NCBI RefSeq assembly: GCF_041435335.1
Contig: NZ_CP108430.1
Span: forward strand, 1,798,001 to 1,862,000
Length of the DNA: 64,000 nucleotides
Direction: 5' to 3'
From: Streptomyces sp. NBC_01283
GTDB taxonomy: Bacteria; Actinomycetota; Actinomycetes; Streptomycetales; Streptomycetaceae
In this document: in pieces, positions 16,409-23,348 of the stretch
Layout: every line of letters begins with the position of its first letter
Numbering within the stretch: position 1 is the stretch's first letter
Program-made: the position numbers and the translations under genes
Notes under the pieces: generated by a model
The model's input: only the letters and a program-made list of their open reading frames with translations
What the model was told of the DNA's origin: nothing
The model's database searches: none

Positions 16409-17098
16409 TCAGCCACCCCCGCCGCCCCCGCCGCCCGACCTGGCGTCCTCCGCGGACGACACCGCCGACGCCAGCGCCTTGCGCAGCGTCCGCATCAGCC
16501 CGGGGAGCTCGGGGCCCGGTGCCCCGCTGCGGTCGGTGAGCGCTTCGAGCCGCTCCTTGTACTGCCTGCGGTCCTTGCCCGAGATGACGCCGCGCAGCTT
16601 GCCCGTCGCCGCGCACACCACCAGGGCGGCGTCGCCCGCGGGAACCTCGGAGACCGGCACCGGACCGCGCAGGACCGCGAGCGTCTCGGCGTGCAGGACC
16701 TCGACGTATCCGGCGCGCTCCAGCTCGTAGCGCCGGGAGGGGAAGATCCCCAGGACCCGGGTGCGTTCCGTGCGCAGATATCCCTCGGACGCGAGCTGAT
16801 CGCGTACCGCGTCCATCGTGTGGCGGGACTTGTGGGTGATCCAGCCGCGCCACTTGCGGGGCCTCGACTCCTCGATGAGTTCGATGACGCCGTCGAGCCC
16901 CGGGTCTCCGGTGCGCGCCCCGAAGACCGGAGTGACGATGCCGTCCACGTCCGAGACGAGTCCGCGCTGGGCCAGCTCCGCGAGCGCGCAGGCCCGGACC
17001 GCGTAGTGCAGGTCGGGGGCGCCGGTGATCCGGTTCTTGCCGGTGTCCCAGGCGAGCAGGAAGATCCGGGTCGGCAGGGAGAGCGAGCCGTAGGGCAT
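16409..17098 (-). CDS. GPP34 (GOLPH3-like) family phosphoprotein
   Basis: 229 residues from the ATG at 17098 with AAGGAGG ideally placed. The sequence opens SLSLPTRIFLLAWDTGKNRI and contains ALAELAQRGLV, characteristic of the GPP34 fold, whose eukaryotic member GOLPH3 binds phosphatidylinositol-4-phosphate and retains glycosyltransferases. Streptomycetes hold many paralogs of unknown function, probably membrane-peripheral. The C-terminus ends in eight glycines, a codon-level GGC/GGT run. Its start is back to back with the promoter of the ABC-F operon, only 33 bases from that promoter's -35 hexamer. Confidence 0.85.
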   Translation of the reverse strand: MPYGSLSLPTRIFLLAWDTGKNRITGAPDLHYAVRACALAELAQRGLVSDVDGIVTPVFGARTGDPGLDGVIELIEESRPRKWRGWITHKSRHTMDAVRDQLASEGYLRTERTRVLGIFPSRRYELERAGYVEVLHAETLAVLRGPVPVSEVPAGDAALVVCAATGKLRGVISGKDRRQYKERLEALTDRSGAPGPELPGLMRTLRKALASAVSSAEDARSGGGGGGGG

Positions 17099-17120
17099 GG
17101 GGCCTCCTTGTTCGCGGTCA

Positions 17121-17159
17121 CGATAAAACGTTGACACCGGTCAGGGCGCACCCTACGGT
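17121..17159 (+). promoter_or_regulatory. Promoter of the ABC-F operon with WblC-type AT-rich element
   Basis: TTGACA (17131-17136), a 17-bp spacer and TACGGT (17154-17159) form a good primary-sigma promoter. The AT-rich GATAAAACG directly upstream of the -35 resembles the box recognised by WhiB7/WblC, the antibiotic-stress activator. An AGAACGGTTCT palindrome (17162-17172) lies at the start of the transcript. Confidence 0.65.
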
Positions 17160-17196
17160 GTAGAACGGTTCTGTTGTCGCCGATAGGAGTAGGACG

Positions 17197-17208
17197 TTGC
17201 TCGTCTGA
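17197..17208 (+). CDS. Three-codon leader ORF of the ABC-F attenuator
   Basis: TTG-CTC-GTC-TGA (fMet-Leu-Val-stop) follows GGAG (17186-17189) at seven-base spacing, about 30 bases into the predicted transcript. Very short upstream ORFs are known to drive ribosome-mediated attenuation of ABC-F resistance genes: a drug-stalled ribosome on the ORF changes the downstream fold. That this ORF is translated is inferred from its ribosome-binding site and position. Confidence 0.5.
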   Translation: MLV

Positions 17209-17226
17209 GGTCTGGTGTCACCGCGT

Positions 17227-17305
17227 CACACGGCTCGGCCGTGTGCGTAGCGTGCGACCTCGGCGTTCGAGCCGTCCCCCGGCGCAGGGCCCTTTTTTCT
17301 GCCCT
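17227..17305 (+). promoter_or_regulatory. Attenuator-like region with mutually exclusive hairpins
   Basis: CACACGGC-TCG-GCCGTGTG (17227-17245) forms a tight hairpin. Its ACGGCTCG segment (17230-17237) can instead pair perfectly with CGAGCCGT (17268-17275), so the two folds exclude each other. A run of six T (17293-17298) follows an AGGGCCCT palindrome, and AGGGC/GCCCT (17286-17290 with 17301-17305) can also pair. I could not find one classic terminator stem that ends exactly at the T-run. Confidence 0.5.
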
Positions 17306-17407
17306 AACCCCCTGACGACGTCGCTCCCGTCCTGCCGTCGCGCCCCGCGGTGTCCCGAAACGCGTTGCCCCTGACCGCGCTTCATCTCACGCAACCGCGA
17401 GGACCAC

Positions 17408-19039
17408 ATGTCTACTTCCCCCACTTCCATCACCTGCACGTCGCTCGACTTCACCTGGCCGGACGGGACCGGCGTCTTCGACGGTTTCCAGGCGGCCTTC
17501 GGGACCGGCAGGACCGGCCTCATCGGTGTCAACGGGTCAGGAAAATCAACCCTGTTGAAGCTTCTGGCCGGTGAGCTCACACCGAACGAGGGCGCCGTCC
17601 GCGTCGCGGGCGAGATCGGGTACCTGCCGCAGAACATCACCCTCGACACCGGTCTGCGCGTCGACGAGGTGCTCGGCATCGCGGCAACTCGCGCCGCCCT
17701 GCACGCCATTGAGGCGGGTGACGTGGCCGAGGAGCACTTCACCGCGGTCGGTGACGACTGGGACGTGGAGGAGCGCGCCGTCGCGACCCTCGACCAGCTC
17801 GGCCTCGGCCACATCGGCCTGGACCGCACCACCGGCGAGGTGTCGGGCGGCGAGTCCGTGCTGCTGCGCCTCGCCGCGCTGCTGCTGCGCCGGCCCGACG
17901 TGCTCCTGCTCGACGAACCCACCAACAACCTCGACCTGTACGCCCGTCGGCGCCTGTACGCGGCCGTCGACGGATGGTCCGGGGTCCTGGTCGTGGTCAG
18001 CCACGACCGTGAACTCCTCGATCTGGTCGACCAGATCGCCGACCTGCGGGACGGGGAGCTCAAGTGGTACGGAGGAAACTTCTCCGCGTACGAGGAGGCC
18101 CTCGCCGCCGAGCAGGACGCGGCGGAGCGCATGGTGCGCGTCGCCGAGTCCGACCTGAAGAAGCAGAAGCGTGAACTGGCCGATGCCCAGGTGAAGTTGG
18201 CCCGCCGAAAGCGGTACGGCCAGAAGATGTGGGACACCAAGCGCGAGCCGAAGGTCGTCATGGGCGAGCGCAAGCGCCAGGCCCAGGTGTCCGCGGGCAA
18301 GCACCGCATCATGCACGAGGAGAAACTCAGCGAGGCCAAGGAGCGCCTGGACGATGCCGTCGAGGCGGTGCGGGACGACGACGAGATCCGCGTCGACCTG
18401 CCGCACACCGCGGTCCCGCCGGGCCGCACGGTCCTCACGCTGAGCAATCTGTCCCTGCGTTACGGAGCGCGCGTACAGGGCGAGTTCGAGCTGCGCGGAC
18501 CCGAGCGGGTCGCGCTGGTAGGCCGCAACGGCGCGGGCAAGACCACGCTGCTGCGGACCATCGCCGGAGAGCTGGCGGCCGTGGAAGGAGAGGCACTGGC
18601 GCACGTCCCGCTGCGCTTCCTGCCGCAGCGGCTCGACGTGCTCGACGAGGAGCTCACCGTGGCCGAGAACGTGGCACGCTACGCCCCCGGCGCCACCAAC
18701 AACCGGATCCGGGCCCGCCTGGCCCGCTTCCTGTTCAAGGGGGCACGGGCCGACCAGCGGGCGGCGACCCTGTCGGGCGGCGAGCGGTTCCGGGCGGCAC
18801 TGGCCGCCCTGCTGCTCGCGGAACCGGCGCCGCAGCTCCTGATGCTCGACGAGCCGACGAACAACCTCGACATGGCGAGCGCGAAGCAGCTGGCCACGGC
18901 CCTGGAGTCGTACGAGGGAGCGCTGATCGTGGCCAGTCACGACGTGGCGTTCCTGGAGTCGATCGGCATCACGCGCTGGCTGCTTCTCGACGGAGAAATG
19001 AAAGAAATCACGACAGAAGCTGTCGGGTATTTTGACTAG
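17408..19039 (+). CDS. ABC-F family ATPase (ribosome-protection / antibiotic-resistance type)
   Basis: 543 residues, two ABC domains on one chain and no membrane segments. Domain 1 has Walker A GVNGSGKST (about 38-46), signature VSGGES and Walker B DVLLLDEPTNN. Domain 2 has GRNGAGKTT (about 374-382), LSGGERFR and LLMLDEPTNNLD. Between them lies a charged helical interdomain linker (about 235-320) that in resistance-type members reaches into the ribosome. ABC-F proteins with this arrangement dislodge macrolides, lincosamides, streptogramins or pleuromutilins from the 50S subunit. A roughly 240-base leader with a mini-ORF and alternative hairpins supports drug-induced expression. AGGA precedes the ATG. 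The stop abuts the UvrA-like gene, implying co-transcription. Confidence 0.9.
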   Translation: MSTSPTSITCTSLDFTWPDGTGVFDGFQAAFGTGRTGLIGVNGSGKSTLLKLLAGELTPNEGAVRVAGEIGYLPQNITLDTGLRVDEVLGIAATRAALHAIEAGDVAEEHFTAVGDDWDVEERAVATLDQLGLGHIGLDRTTGEVSGGESVLLRLAALLLRRPDVLLLDEPTNNLDLYARRRLYAAVDGWSGVLVVVSHDRELLDLVDQIADLRDGELKWYGGNFSAYEEALAAEQDAAERMVRVAESDLKKQKRELADAQVKLARRKRYGQKMWDTKREPKVVMGERKRQAQVSAGKHRIMHEEKLSEAKERLDDAVEAVRDDDEIRVDLPHTAVPPGRTVLTLSNLSLRYGARVQGEFELRGPERVALVGRNGAGKTTLLRTIAGELAAVEGEALAHVPLRFLPQRLDVLDEELTVAENVARYAPGATNNRIRARLARFLFKGARADQRAATLSGGERFRAALAALLLAEPAPQLLMLDEPTNNLDMASAKQLATALESYEGALIVASHDVAFLESIGITRWLLLDGEMKEITTEAVGYFD

Positions 19040-19049
19040 CTTCGCCTGT

Positions 19050-21341
19050 ATGCACCAGTACATCACCATCACAGGAGCCCGTGAGAACAACCTCAAGGAG
19101 GTGAGCCTGCGCATCCCGAAGGACCGGCTCACGGTCTTCACCGGCGTATCGGGGTCGGGGAAGTCATCGGTCGTGTTCGACACGATCGCGGTCGAGTCGC
19201 AGCGTCAGCTGAACGAGACCTTCACGTGGTTCGTCCGCAACCGGCTGCCGAAGTACGAGCGGCCGCACGCGGAGACCATCGAGGATCTCTCGCCCGCGAT
19301 CGTCGTCGACCAGCGGCCGGTCGGCGGTCACTCCCGGTCCACGGTGGGCACGATGACGGACATCTACGCGGTGATGCGCGTGCTGTTCTCGCGGCACGGC
19401 ACACCGAGTGCCGGCCCGGCCACCGCGTACTCGTTCAACGACCCGGCGGGCATGTGTCCCCGGTGCCACGGCCTGGGCAGGACCGTCCGGCCCGACTACG
19501 ACCGCATCCTGGACCCCGCCAAGTCCCTGGCGGACGGCGCGATCCTCTTCCCGCCGTTCGCCGCGGGGACCTGGCAGGGCCAGACCTACACCCACACCAC
19601 CGACCTGGACACGCACAAGCCGGTGGGCCAATTCGACGCGCGGGAGCGGGAGTTCCTCCTGCGCGGCGGCAAGCACGGCGGCAAGGTCAGCGTCGACAAC
19701 ACCGGCGGCGCGCGGGACATCGACTACGAAGGGCTCGCCGACCGCTTCGAACGGCTCTACCTCAACCGCGATCTGTCGTCGCTCTCCCAGAAGACCCGCG
19801 ACCTCGTGCAGCGCTTCCTCGTCGAGGGCGCGTGCGACCTCTGCGACGGGGCGCGGCTCAACGCGGCGGCGCTCGCCACCCGCATCGGCGGCATGAACAT
19901 CGCCGAGGCCTCGCGGATGGAGGTCACCGACCTCATCGCCGCCCTGGAGCGGATCGACGACCCGGTGGCGGGCCCGATCGCGGCGGCGGCCGTGGCGGCG
20001 CTCGAACGGATCGAGGCGATCGGCCTCGGCTACCTCAGCCTGGGCCGCGAGACGTCCACGCTGTCCGGCGGCGAGGGGCAGCGCCTGAAGACGGTGCGGC
20101 ACCTCGGCTCCAGCCTGACCGGCATGACGTACATCTTCGACGAGCCGAGCGTCGGCCTGCACCCGCGTGACGTGGGGCGGCTCAACGACCTGCTGCTGCG
20201 CCTGCGCGACAAGGGGAACACCGTCCTGGTCGTCGAGCACGACCCGGACGTGATCGCCGTCGCCGACCACGTCGTCGACATGGGCCCGGCGGCGGGCACG
20301 GGCGGCGGCCTGGTCGTCTTCGAGGGGACGCCGGACGAGCTGCGGCACGCCGACACGCTCACGGGCCGGCACCTGCGGCGCTCGACGGGCATCAAGGAGA
20401 ACCCGCGCGAGGCCATCGGCGGGCGGTGGGTCAAGGGCGCCGCCCTGCACAACCTCAAGGACGTCAGCGTGCGCGTGCCGACTGGGGTGCTCACGGCGGT
20501 GACGGGCGTCGCGGGCTCGGGCAAGAGCACGCTGGTGTCGCGGGCGTTCGTCGCCGAGCACCCGGACGCCGTGGTCGTGGACCAGTCGGGCATCGGCATC
20601 TCGGGCCGCTCCACCCCGGCGACGTACCTCGGGATCATGGACTCGCTGCGCAAGCTCTTCGCGCGGGAGACCGGCCGGGAGGCGGGGCTCTTCAGCTTCA
20701 ACTCCGGTGGCGCGTGCGAGAGCTGCCAGGGCCGCGGGATCATCTACAGCGACCTCGCCTTCATGGATCCGGTGACGACCACCTGCGAGGCGTGCGAGGG
20801 GCGCCGCTTCAAGGACGAGGTGCTCCGGCTGACCGTCGGCGGCAGCTCCATCGCCGATGTGCTCGACATGACGGCCGAGCGCGCCCTCGGCTTCTTCGCC
20901 GCGGTCGACGACACGGCGATGCGCCGCCGGCTGCGGGCCCTGCACGACGTGGGGCTCACCTACCTGACGCTCGGGCAGCCCCTGAGCACCCTCTCGGGTG
21001 GCGAGCGGCAGCGCATCAAGCTCGCCACCCAGCTGCACCGCACCGGCACCACATACGTCCTGGACGAGCCGACGACCGGCCTGCACATGGCCGACGTGGA
21101 CGGGCTGCTCGGCCTCCTGGACCGGCTCGTCGACGCCGGGAACACCGTGCTGGTCGTCGAGCACAACCTGCAGGTCGTCAAGCACGCGGACTGGGTGATC
21201 GACCTCGGGCCCGACGGCGGCAAGCACGGCGGGCAGGTCGTCTTCGAGGGCACGCCGGCACAGCTGATCGACGCGGACGGCTCGTTCACCGCCGATCATC
21301 TGCGACGAGACCTGGGCCTGGACCCCTCCCACGCTGCATGA
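19050..21341 (+). CDS. UvrA-like ATPase (DrrC-type, short UvrA paralog)
   Basis: 763 residues, about 200 shorter than housekeeping UvrA (around 950) and close to DrrC, the daunorubicin-resistance UvrA homolog. Seen: Walker A GVSGSGKSS (about 32-40), zinc-type pair CPRCHGLGR, signature LSGGEGQRLK, IFDEPSVGLHP; then GVAGSGKST, the zinc finger CESC and CEAC, LSGGERQRIK and VLDEPTTGLH. The missing length lies in the UvrB-binding and insertion regions of the N-terminal half, so it may remove DNA-bound drug rather than feed excision repair (inference from family). The ATG at 19050 lacks a Shine-Dalgarno; a TTG at 19032 overlaps the ABC-F stop and would allow coupling. Confidence 0.88.
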   Translation: MHQYITITGARENNLKEVSLRIPKDRLTVFTGVSGSGKSSVVFDTIAVESQRQLNETFTWFVRNRLPKYERPHAETIEDLSPAIVVDQRPVGGHSRSTVGTMTDIYAVMRVLFSRHGTPSAGPATAYSFNDPAGMCPRCHGLGRTVRPDYDRILDPAKSLADGAILFPPFAAGTWQGQTYTHTTDLDTHKPVGQFDAREREFLLRGGKHGGKVSVDNTGGARDIDYEGLADRFERLYLNRDLSSLSQKTRDLVQRFLVEGACDLCDGARLNAAALATRIGGMNIAEASRMEVTDLIAALERIDDPVAGPIAAAAVAALERIEAIGLGYLSLGRETSTLSGGEGQRLKTVRHLGSSLTGMTYIFDEPSVGLHPRDVGRLNDLLLRLRDKGNTVLVVEHDPDVIAVADHVVDMGPAAGTGGGLVVFEGTPDELRHADTLTGRHLRRSTGIKENPREAIGGRWVKGAALHNLKDVSVRVPTGVLTAVTGVAGSGKSTLVSRAFVAEHPDAVVVDQSGIGISGRSTPATYLGIMDSLRKLFARETGREAGLFSFNSGGACESCQGRGIIYSDLAFMDPVTTTCEACEGRRFKDEVLRLTVGGSSIADVLDMTAERALGFFAAVDDTAMRRRLRALHDVGLTYLTLGQPLSTLSGGERQRIKLATQLHRTGTTYVLDEPTTGLHMADVDGLLGLLDRLVDAGNTVLVVEHNLQVVKHADWVIDLGPDGGKHGGQVVFEGTPAQLIDADGSFTADHLRRDLGLDPSHAA

Positions 21342-22298: not shown

Positions 22299-22376
22299 AG
22301 GTAGCACCCGCTCGTGCTTCCGCGTAACCCCTACGCACGTAATCCGCAAAAAAACTCCCGTCCCCCTGGAGCCCCC

Positions 22377-23348
22377 GTGACGATCACCTCTCCTCATCTC
22401 GGCAGCACGGACGACTGGACCGATGCCCGGTTGCTGTTCGCCCTGGAAGAAGTGGTCGAGAAGGAGCTCAACCGCCACCTGAAGGTGGCGAAGGACTGGA
22501 TGCCGCACGAGTACGTGCCGTTCTCCGACGCCCGGAACTTCCCCGGCTACTTCGAGGACGGCCAGGCCTGGGAGCCCGAGCAGTCCAAGGTGACCGACAT
22601 CGGCAAGATCGCCCTTGTCGTCAACCTGCTGACCGAGGACAACCTCCCCAGCTACCACCACGAGATCGCCTCCCTCTTCGGCCGCGACGGCGCCTGGGGC
22701 ACCTGGGTGCACCGCTGGACCGCCGAGGAGGGCCGCCACGGCATCGTGATGCGCGACTACCTCTTGGCCTCGCGTGCCGTGGACCCGGACAAGCTCGAGC
22801 AGTTCCGCATGGCGCACATGGCCGAGGGCTTCGAGTCCGACAACCGGCACTCGATGCTGCACTCGGTCGCGTACGTGGCCTTCCAGGAGCTCGCGACCCG
22901 CGTCTCGCACCGCAACACCGGCCACCAGTCGGGCGACCCGGTCTGCGACCGGATGCTGGCGCGCATCGCCACCGACGAGAACCTGCACATGGTCTTCTAC
23001 CGCAACCTCCTGGGCGCGGCCTTCGAGCTCGCCCCGGATCTGACGATGCAGTCCGTGCGTGACGTCGTGGTCGACTTCCGGATGCCCGGTCACGGCATGC
23101 CCGGCTTCGAGCGGGCCGCCGCGCAGATGGCGATCGGCGAGATCTACAACATGCGCATCCACCACGACGACGTGATCCAGCCCGTCCTTCGCTACCTGAA
23201 GGTCCTGGACATCGACGGGCTCGGCCCCGACGGTCTCAAGGCGCAGGAGGAGCTCGGCCTGTACATGAACGGGCTCGACAGCGAGGCCAGCAAGTTCGAC
23301 GAGAAGCTTGCCGCCCGCAAGGCGCGGATGGCGGCTCGGGGGAAGTAG
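22377..23348 (+). CDS. Acyl-ACP desaturase (soluble di-iron, FAB desaturase family)
   Basis: 323 residues from the GTG at 22377 (GGAG six bases upstream). The di-iron carboxylate ligands are visible: WTAEEGRHG (EExxH, about residue 120) and ATDENLHMVF (DExxH, about 205), plus an early Glu in LEEVVEKELNRHL and Glu in FQELATRVSHRNTG. The enzyme introduces a double bond into saturated acyl-ACP (stearoyl-ACP type), using ferredoxin and oxygen, and adjusts membrane fluidity. An ATG at 22314 in frame adds a proline/arginine-rich tail with no family match, so I reject it. A perfect palindrome 80-110 bases upstream suggests transcriptional control by lipid status. Confidence 0.93.
   Translation: MTITSPHLGSTDDWTDARLLFALEEVVEKELNRHLKVAKDWMPHEYVPFSDARNFPGYFEDGQAWEPEQSKVTDIGKIALVVNLLTEDNLPSYHHEIASLFGRDGAWGTWVHRWTAEEGRHGIVMRDYLLASRAVDPDKLEQFRMAHMAEGFESDNRHSMLHSVAYVAFQELATRVSHRNTGHQSGDPVCDRMLARIATDENLHMVFYRNLLGAAFELAPDLTMQSVRDVVVDFRMPGHGMPGFERAAAQMAIGEIYNMRIHHDDVIQPVLRYLKVLDIDGLGPDGLKAQEELGLYMNGLDSEASKFDEKLAARKARMAARGK

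Follow-up and report, generated by a model that had tools for sequence, protein, structure and literature searches.

The ABC-F gene in the stretch of DNA analysed here (64,000 nucleotides, hereafter the window) lies behind a leader that contains a three-codon upstream open reading frame (uORF). Does this leader sense drugs that act on the ribosome, and would it then control the transcription or the translation of the gene? The element is real and conserved, and it is essentially already known from the Streptomyces coelicolor orthologue. What this analysis adds is a set of conserved arms, a UUG start shared by all leaders of our sample, a group of compact leaders and the dismissal of one hairpin. 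The features discussed below are collected in Table 1.

Table 1. Elements of the leader and genes behind it, with their positions in the window.
Feature	Position	Strand	Basis
AT box GATAAA (17122-17127), 3 nt, then -35 TTGACA (17131-17136)	17122-17136	+	Sequence, A/T peak in placed promoters
-10 TACGGT, 17-nt spacer from the -35	17154-17159	+	Commonest -10 (55 of 118 placed promoters)
Shine-Dalgarno (SD) sequence of the uORF, GGAG	17186-17189	+	Near invariant in leaders
H1, 5' side: A (17192-17203) and B, GAGGTC (17207-17212)	17192-17212	+	Conserved pairs
uORF TTG CTC GTC TGA (Met-Leu-Val), orthologue of are5scL1	17197-17208	+	Conserved in 130/130 leaders; published in S. coelicolor
P5 arm, CACCGCG, just past the uORF	17219-17225	+	CACC-type core conserved
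Apical hairpin within H1, CACACGGC-TCG-GCCGTGTG, variable sequence	17227-17245	+	Stem test in leaders
H1, 3' side: B', GACCTC (17256-17261), and A', CGAGCCGTCC (17268-17277)	17256-17277	+	Conserved pairs
Small hairpin AGGGC/GCCCT, T-run 17293-17298 in its loop	17286-17305	+	Scan and folding
Switch arm CGCGGTGTCC, whose partner is P5 or, alternatively, the ABC-F SD or the bases immediately ahead of it	17346-17355	+	Pairing tests
ABC-F SD, GAGGA (17399-17403), and preceding GCAACCGC	17391-17407	+	Folding of the region
ABC-F ATPase, orthologue of Are5sc (SCO6720)	17408-19039	+	Profile and protein comparison, genome survey
UvrA-like ATPase, second gene of a likely operon	19050-21341	+	First ATG at 19050

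Genes of the locus and sample of leaders

The ABC-F protein scores 349.7 bits against the NCBIfam family NF000355 (ribo_prot_ABC_F), which is the top-scoring family of its library despite a curated cut-off of 380 that this score does not reach. Elsewhere in the same genome, an ABC-F paralogue with 53% identity lies behind a uORF encoding MVGEDDISG (GTG start) and is thus of the TiaA type; the window gene is therefore of the Are5sc type. On this sequence comparison, the window ABC-F is the orthologue of Are5sc and not of TiaA. The orthology with SCO6720 is predicted from the uORF type of the paralogue, from the Met-Leu-Val (MLV) uORF and from a 20-mer. The published SCO6720 guide reads FLESLG where the window reads FLESIG; of 392 genomes, 7 contain that 20-mer, each time in this gene. 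The TiaA-type locus (C1:8885585-8888911; L274 and L276) adjoins a second ABC-F-like gene in the same direction, with 37% identity to the window ABC-F query.

The first ATG of the UvrA-like gene is 10 nt past the ABC-F stop, with an in-frame TTG at 19032. Both genes have the same direction and are likely to form an operon. The list in the published text of PMC6637917 has an ABC transporter for sco6720 and a UvrA-like ABC transporter for sco6719, which matches the pair in the window. A UvrA-like gene was found downstream in 30 of the 80 named loci (one of them a partial match), these being the 80 top-ranking matches among at least 548, some clipped by contig ends. All the relatives kept in this named set are Streptomyces, and the window itself, at C1:1798001-1862000, is Streptomyces-like chromosome. 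The genome carries several more UvrA homologues, some of the UvrA-like proteins being 43-49% identical to that of the window. On the minus strand, 22728-22795 matches the Rfam family ASdes sRNA, antisense to the open reading frame 22314-23348.

For the leader, we compared 130 upstream regions of ABC-F matches, from 127 genomes among the 199 of the genus that were searched. These are the better matches, with at least 72% identity to the window protein, and counts over all 130 are silent on more distant relatives. Three genomes gave two leaders each: G103 (L005 and L031), G021 (L024 and L052) and G161 (L028 and L076) have two ABC-F copies, each with its own three-codon uORF leader.

Promoter and three-codon uORF

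A sequence-only reading of this DNA had described a promoter with a WblC-like AT box. Its -35, -10 and AT box could all be placed, and a sharp A/T peak accompanies 118 of the 130 leaders: in these placed promoters, the A/T fraction reaches 0.72-0.98 at positions -8 to -4 from the -35 element vs. 0.12-0.33 at -24 to -10. According to the published text of PMC7157823, the WblC consensus is GAAAWY, 3 nt upstream of the -35. The AT box of the window fits this consensus in position and matches it in 4 of 6 letters, which by sequence points to a promoter of the WblC/WhiB7 type. A divergent gene encoding a GPP34-domain protein (16409-17137, minus strand) is listed with a GTG start at 17137. Such a start would overlap the ABC-F promoter, and the gene more probably begins at an internal codon.

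The Met-Leu-Val mini-ORF with its own ribosome-binding site had been read correctly, coordinates included, and all 130 leaders keep a uORF of this kind. The start is UUG (never AUG or GUG) and the stop UGA throughout, with a length of three codons in 128 leaders and of four in the other two. Among the encoded peptides, MLV accounts for 111 leaders, followed by MLF (9), MLL (3), MLY (2), MLD, MRY and MKV (1 each), and the four-codon MLHI (2). The variation preserves the frame, and the conservation of the uORF is far beyond chance. Among 293 genomes sampled across the order, 177 carry an exact copy of the block GGAGNAGGNCRTTGCTCNNCTGAGGT, and these belong to 2 of the 9 genera; the genome of the window holds no second copy with up to 3 mismatches. 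With an MLV uORF that starts at TTG and has its own SD, ahead of an ARE5 ABC-F gene, the leader of the window is of the are5sc type.

The same uORF is known from S. coelicolor, where are5sc (SCO6720) has a uORF L1 that encodes MLV from a TTG start, published in 2025 (PMC12421871). As stated in the text of that report, 50S-site drugs of the lincosamide/streptogramin A/pleuromutilin group halt the ribosome at the UUG of this uORF. The are5sc promoter fusion was constitutive and the transcriptional fusion was induced by antibiotics, which its authors read as transcriptional control; are5sc is also counted in the WblC regulon (PMC12421871). In the same study, tiamulin and pristinamycin IIA induced Are5sc only in a strain lacking TiaA. 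The antibiotic-inducible control by ribosome stalling on a three-codon ORF, as the sequence-only reading had put it, is therefore published, with both stalling and induction, for the S. coelicolor orthologue. That reading had also listed macrolides among the inducers. Since erythromycin caused no stalling in the toeprint described in the text of PMC12421871, macrolides would not be expected to induce the window leader.

Another three-codon frame, which overlaps the MLV stop and which we take as the published second uORF L2 (MRS/LRS), is present in 88 of the 130 leaders. It reads on in the window, where L2 appears to have no counterpart, and only L1 was found translated in the S. coelicolor leader according to the text of PMC12421871; we therefore rejected this frame as the sensor.

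The uORF hairpin

In 103 of the 130 leaders, the uORF is buried in a hairpin, hereafter H1. In it, the SD/start region (AGGACG-UU-GCUCG) pairs with CGAGCCGUCC, and the stop codon lies within GAGGUC, which pairs with GACCUC. Each of 14 among its 15 pairs is found in 98-100 of the 100 unique leaders, and the 15th in 93 of 94 (6 gaps). The permutation analysis detected no covariation within H1 (325 of 2000 permutations were as good), because its pairs hardly vary. In one leader from another genus (L251), both strands of B, the stop-codon helix, have changed in a matching way. The H1 duplex of the window has an energy of -28.2 kcal/mol; when the leader is folded, H1 is present in the centroid and absent from the minimum-energy fold. 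The whole window leader folds no better than its shuffles (z = +0.85), and the Rfam gathering scan of the window gave no family at the leader. From these sequences, the uORF is predicted to lie inside a hairpin whose formation would be prevented by a stalled ribosome, as in systems of the vmlR/cplR kind.

Within H1, an apical stem of at least 6 pairs (G-U allowed) was found in 88 of 102 leaders vs. a fraction of 0.47 of the shuffles. The sequence-only reading had set two perfect hairpins against each other as mutually exclusive, 17227-17234/17238-17245 and 17230-17237/17268-17275. Both exist as letters, and the first is the apical hairpin of H1. The second one is not conserved: an 8-nt complement of its arm 17268-17275 occurs in the loop segment of only 1 of 102 leaders (that of the window itself), and a 6-nt complement in 2; we therefore rejected this hairpin, and the exclusive pair goes with it. 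The conserved partner of 17268-17277 is instead the uORF SD/start region 17192-17203, each of these 8 pairs being kept in 98-100 of 100 leaders. H1 was absent from the earlier reading, as were the second conserved long-range helix and the SD-proximal arm described below.

P5, the switch arm and the ABC-F start region

The second helix joins P5 (family consensus GAGACACCG) to a switch arm (consensus CGGTGTCTC) located about 45-65 nt before the gene in many leaders. The CACC-type core of P5 starts at +22/+23 of the uORF in 127 of the 130 leaders. In the two leaders with four-codon uORFs, this core has moved by one codon with its distance to the stop kept; neither has a clear switch arm. At least 7 consecutive pairs link P5 and the switch region in 114 of the 130 leaders, and at least 6 in 129, and shuffles reach 7 at a frequency of 0.25. 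The P5/arm duplex is at or below -15 kcal/mol in a fraction of 0.96 of 128 leaders, vs. 0.11 for random 20-mers from the same leaders. A strict arm pattern recovers the arm in 112 of the 130 leaders, the remaining 18 being compact or divergent.

RNAalifold gave no pairs on the SD region, because the stems shift register in the alignment, and it was replaced by energy-based duplex swaps. In these swaps, which do not control for relatedness, the mean energy of the leaders' own P5/arm pairs beats all 2000 permutations, as does that of their own arm-side/SD-side pairs. A letter-by-letter swap of the P5/arm pairs detected no covariation (10.52 vs. 10.50 pairs of 12). Three other genera of the family contributed four leaders, L251 among them; all four have a UUG-started MLV uORF and retain both helices, and one of them (L249) displays a compensatory A-U to C-G change across P5 and the arm. 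No description of the P5/switch-arm pairing was found in the text passages and listings of the literature searched.

The pairing of the switch arm with the ABC-F SD has a mean probability of 0.52 over the 130 leaders vs. 0.24 with the arm shuffled; it exceeds 0.4 in 82 leaders and the leader's own shuffled control in 92. When the arm is blocked, access to the SD rises by more than 0.2 in only 32 of the 130 leaders and falls in 2. These comparisons suggest that the conserved core may control access to the SD of the ABC-F gene itself. In the window, the SD-arm pairing is weak (probability 0.10, below the shuffled control at 0.25), the SD becomes no more accessible when the arm is blocked (unpaired 0.30 before and 0.21 after), and the window SD side does no better than foreign SD sides (-15.0 vs. 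a median of -16.05). In the minimum-energy fold of this region, the arm pairs with GCAACCGC, just before the SD. P5 and the arm have drifted in the window (GGTGTCACCGCG and CGCGGTGTCCCG), with the 7-bp core of their helix intact (-18.0 kcal/mol). An alternative pairing that would exclude a terminator or SD closure is well indicated across the family and weakly in the window. P5 lies outside the pairs of H1, so that overlapping bases do not make H1 and the P5/arm helix strictly exclusive.

Proposed mechanism

We propose that the window carries an are5sc-type drug-sensing leader, probably working as a switch of the vmlR/cplR kind in which the P5/arm helix spares the ABC-F start region; we give this reading a probability of about 0.62. 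Stalling and transcriptional induction were shown in the orthologue, and we infer every structural step from comparison. The footprint of a ribosome ends at about +16 when it stands at the start codon and at about +22 when it stands at the stop codon. In the absence of drug, the short uORF would be translated, after which its SD/start and stop regions would pair with 17256-17277 to form H1; nothing would then keep the switch arm from closing the ABC-F start region, and premature ends of the transcript are also possible. With a ribosome halted at UUG, the 5' side of H1 would be covered up to about +16, so that H1 would be blocked, and the P5 arm would be left bare from about +18/19. The bare P5 would pair with the switch arm, and the ABC-F start region would stay open. 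The WblC-type promoter would supply the transcripts, and the UvrA-like gene would be co-expressed. The closure of the ABC-F SD is the least certain of these steps, most of all in the window. This mechanism would add a putative translational layer to the published transcriptional reading of are5sc.

According to the text of PMC12421871, the model published for are5sc is one of transcriptional attenuation, as was that of the sequence-only reading; control would then be purely transcriptional, an intrinsic terminator at 17274-17298 being relieved by the stalled uORF ribosome and the SD pairing being incidental. The antibiotic-induced transcriptional reporter and the constitutive promoter of S. 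coelicolor (PMC12421871) fit this explanation, and so do a stem of at least 5 pairs followed by a T-rich stretch in 32 of the 130 leaders (mostly a 5-6-bp stem just after A') and a U-loop hairpin in 48 of the 103 leaders with H1, vs. a shuffle mean of 9.9. However, the terminator scan found no such site in the window, and a similar rule found none in 98 of the 130 leaders. The T-run 17293-17298, pointed out in the sequence-only reading, follows no canonical stem in the window and sits in the loop of the AGGGC...GCCCT hairpin, which is possibly a weak terminator or antiterminator site; no GC-rich stem directly followed by a U-run was detected in the window. A run of four T after the uORF is present in 54 leaders and absent from 76. 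In addition, the candidate terminator shares GTCC with H1, and a ribosome on the uORF would therefore be expected to favour this terminator rather than remove it. Finally, 12 compact leaders (L102, L103, L105-L108, L116, L117, L122 and L124-L126), with 97-184 nt from the uORF to the ABC-F start, keep the uORF, P5, the arm and the SD; neither of the 3' parts of H1 is present in them, and their T-runs do not exceed 2. H1 can therefore not be the sole off-state, and the intrinsic terminator is not the conserved core, which leaves Rho or translational control. We consider purely transcriptional attenuation by an intrinsic terminator unlikely.

With Rho, transcription would end early in the 3' half of the leader, which is rich in C and poor in G, unless the long-range helix folds this half. 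Such termination would make induction at the transcriptional level compatible with the lack of an intrinsic terminator. In all 130 leaders, C is more frequent than G in the 3' part, more than 1.5-fold so in 98 of them, and positions 17279-17393 of the window have fractions of 0.45 C and 0.24 G. In a high-GC genome, such a bias towards C carries little weight, and we hold Rho to be a decidedly improbable explanation. The leader might also have ceased to switch in the species of the window, expression then following the WblC-type promoter alone. The weak SD-arm pairing and the departure of P5 from its consensus would agree with such a loss, but the uORF, H1 and the 7-bp P5/arm core are intact, and a near relative (L002) keeps the same P5/arm variant. 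This last explanation is very improbable.

A more general view can be put forward tentatively, with the odds rather against it. The ancestral core of are5sc-type leaders would act as a switch on translation, the three-codon uORF would determine its geometry, and P5 and the SD region would compete for a single arm; later additions would be the uORF hairpin and any terminator, and the invariant UUG would tune how often the sensor is loaded. A ribosome at the start codon would leave P5 bare, and one that has advanced by the two to three codons to the stop would cover the first bases of P5. With such a core, transcriptional reporters of ARE5 genes would miss part of the control, and the compact leaders, devoid of hairpin and terminator, would switch by the core alone. 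They would then be a minimal ribosome-footprint sensor, and they make the question directly testable.

Comparison with described systems

The comparison places the gene of the window in a published drug-sensing system, and it names conserved RNA elements beyond those described in the published text consulted here. The closest system is the are5sc leader, with an orthologous gene, a TTG-started MLV uORF, a WblC-type promoter and the UvrA-like SCO6719 next by number. Its published length is 232 bp vs. about 240 in the window, counted from the -10; it differs by its second uORF and by the drift of P5 and the switch arm in the window.

Among more distant systems, vmlR of Bacillus subtilis has a tripeptide uORF (MIN) in a hairpin that is blocked by a drug-stalled ribosome, leading to alternative pairing, and combines transcriptional and translational layers, as described in the text of PMC9226507. 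Its sequence is unrelated, and vmlR has an intrinsic terminator, whereas no canonical one was found in the window; moreover, the alternative pairing of the window leader would reach an arm near the SD. In cplR of Clostridioides difficile, a 5' hairpin sequesters the tripeptide uORF (MRI) and the off state closes the main SD. According to the text of PMC10201436, the cplR SD is part of a terminator hairpin with a poly-U tail, whereas the near-SD pairing of the window has no U-run.

Two further systems concern ARE5 genes. The sister paralogue tiaA (SCO0636), whose 53% relative with MVGEDDISG is found in the genome of the window, differs by a nine-codon uORF (MVGDDDISG) and another leader, from the text of PMC12421871. 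The ABC-F gene lmrC of Streptomyces lincolnensis is controlled by ribosome-mediated attenuation in response to the same drug group; as reported in the text of PMC8546547, its uORF2 overlaps the terminator, and loss of uORF2 leads to constitutive expression.
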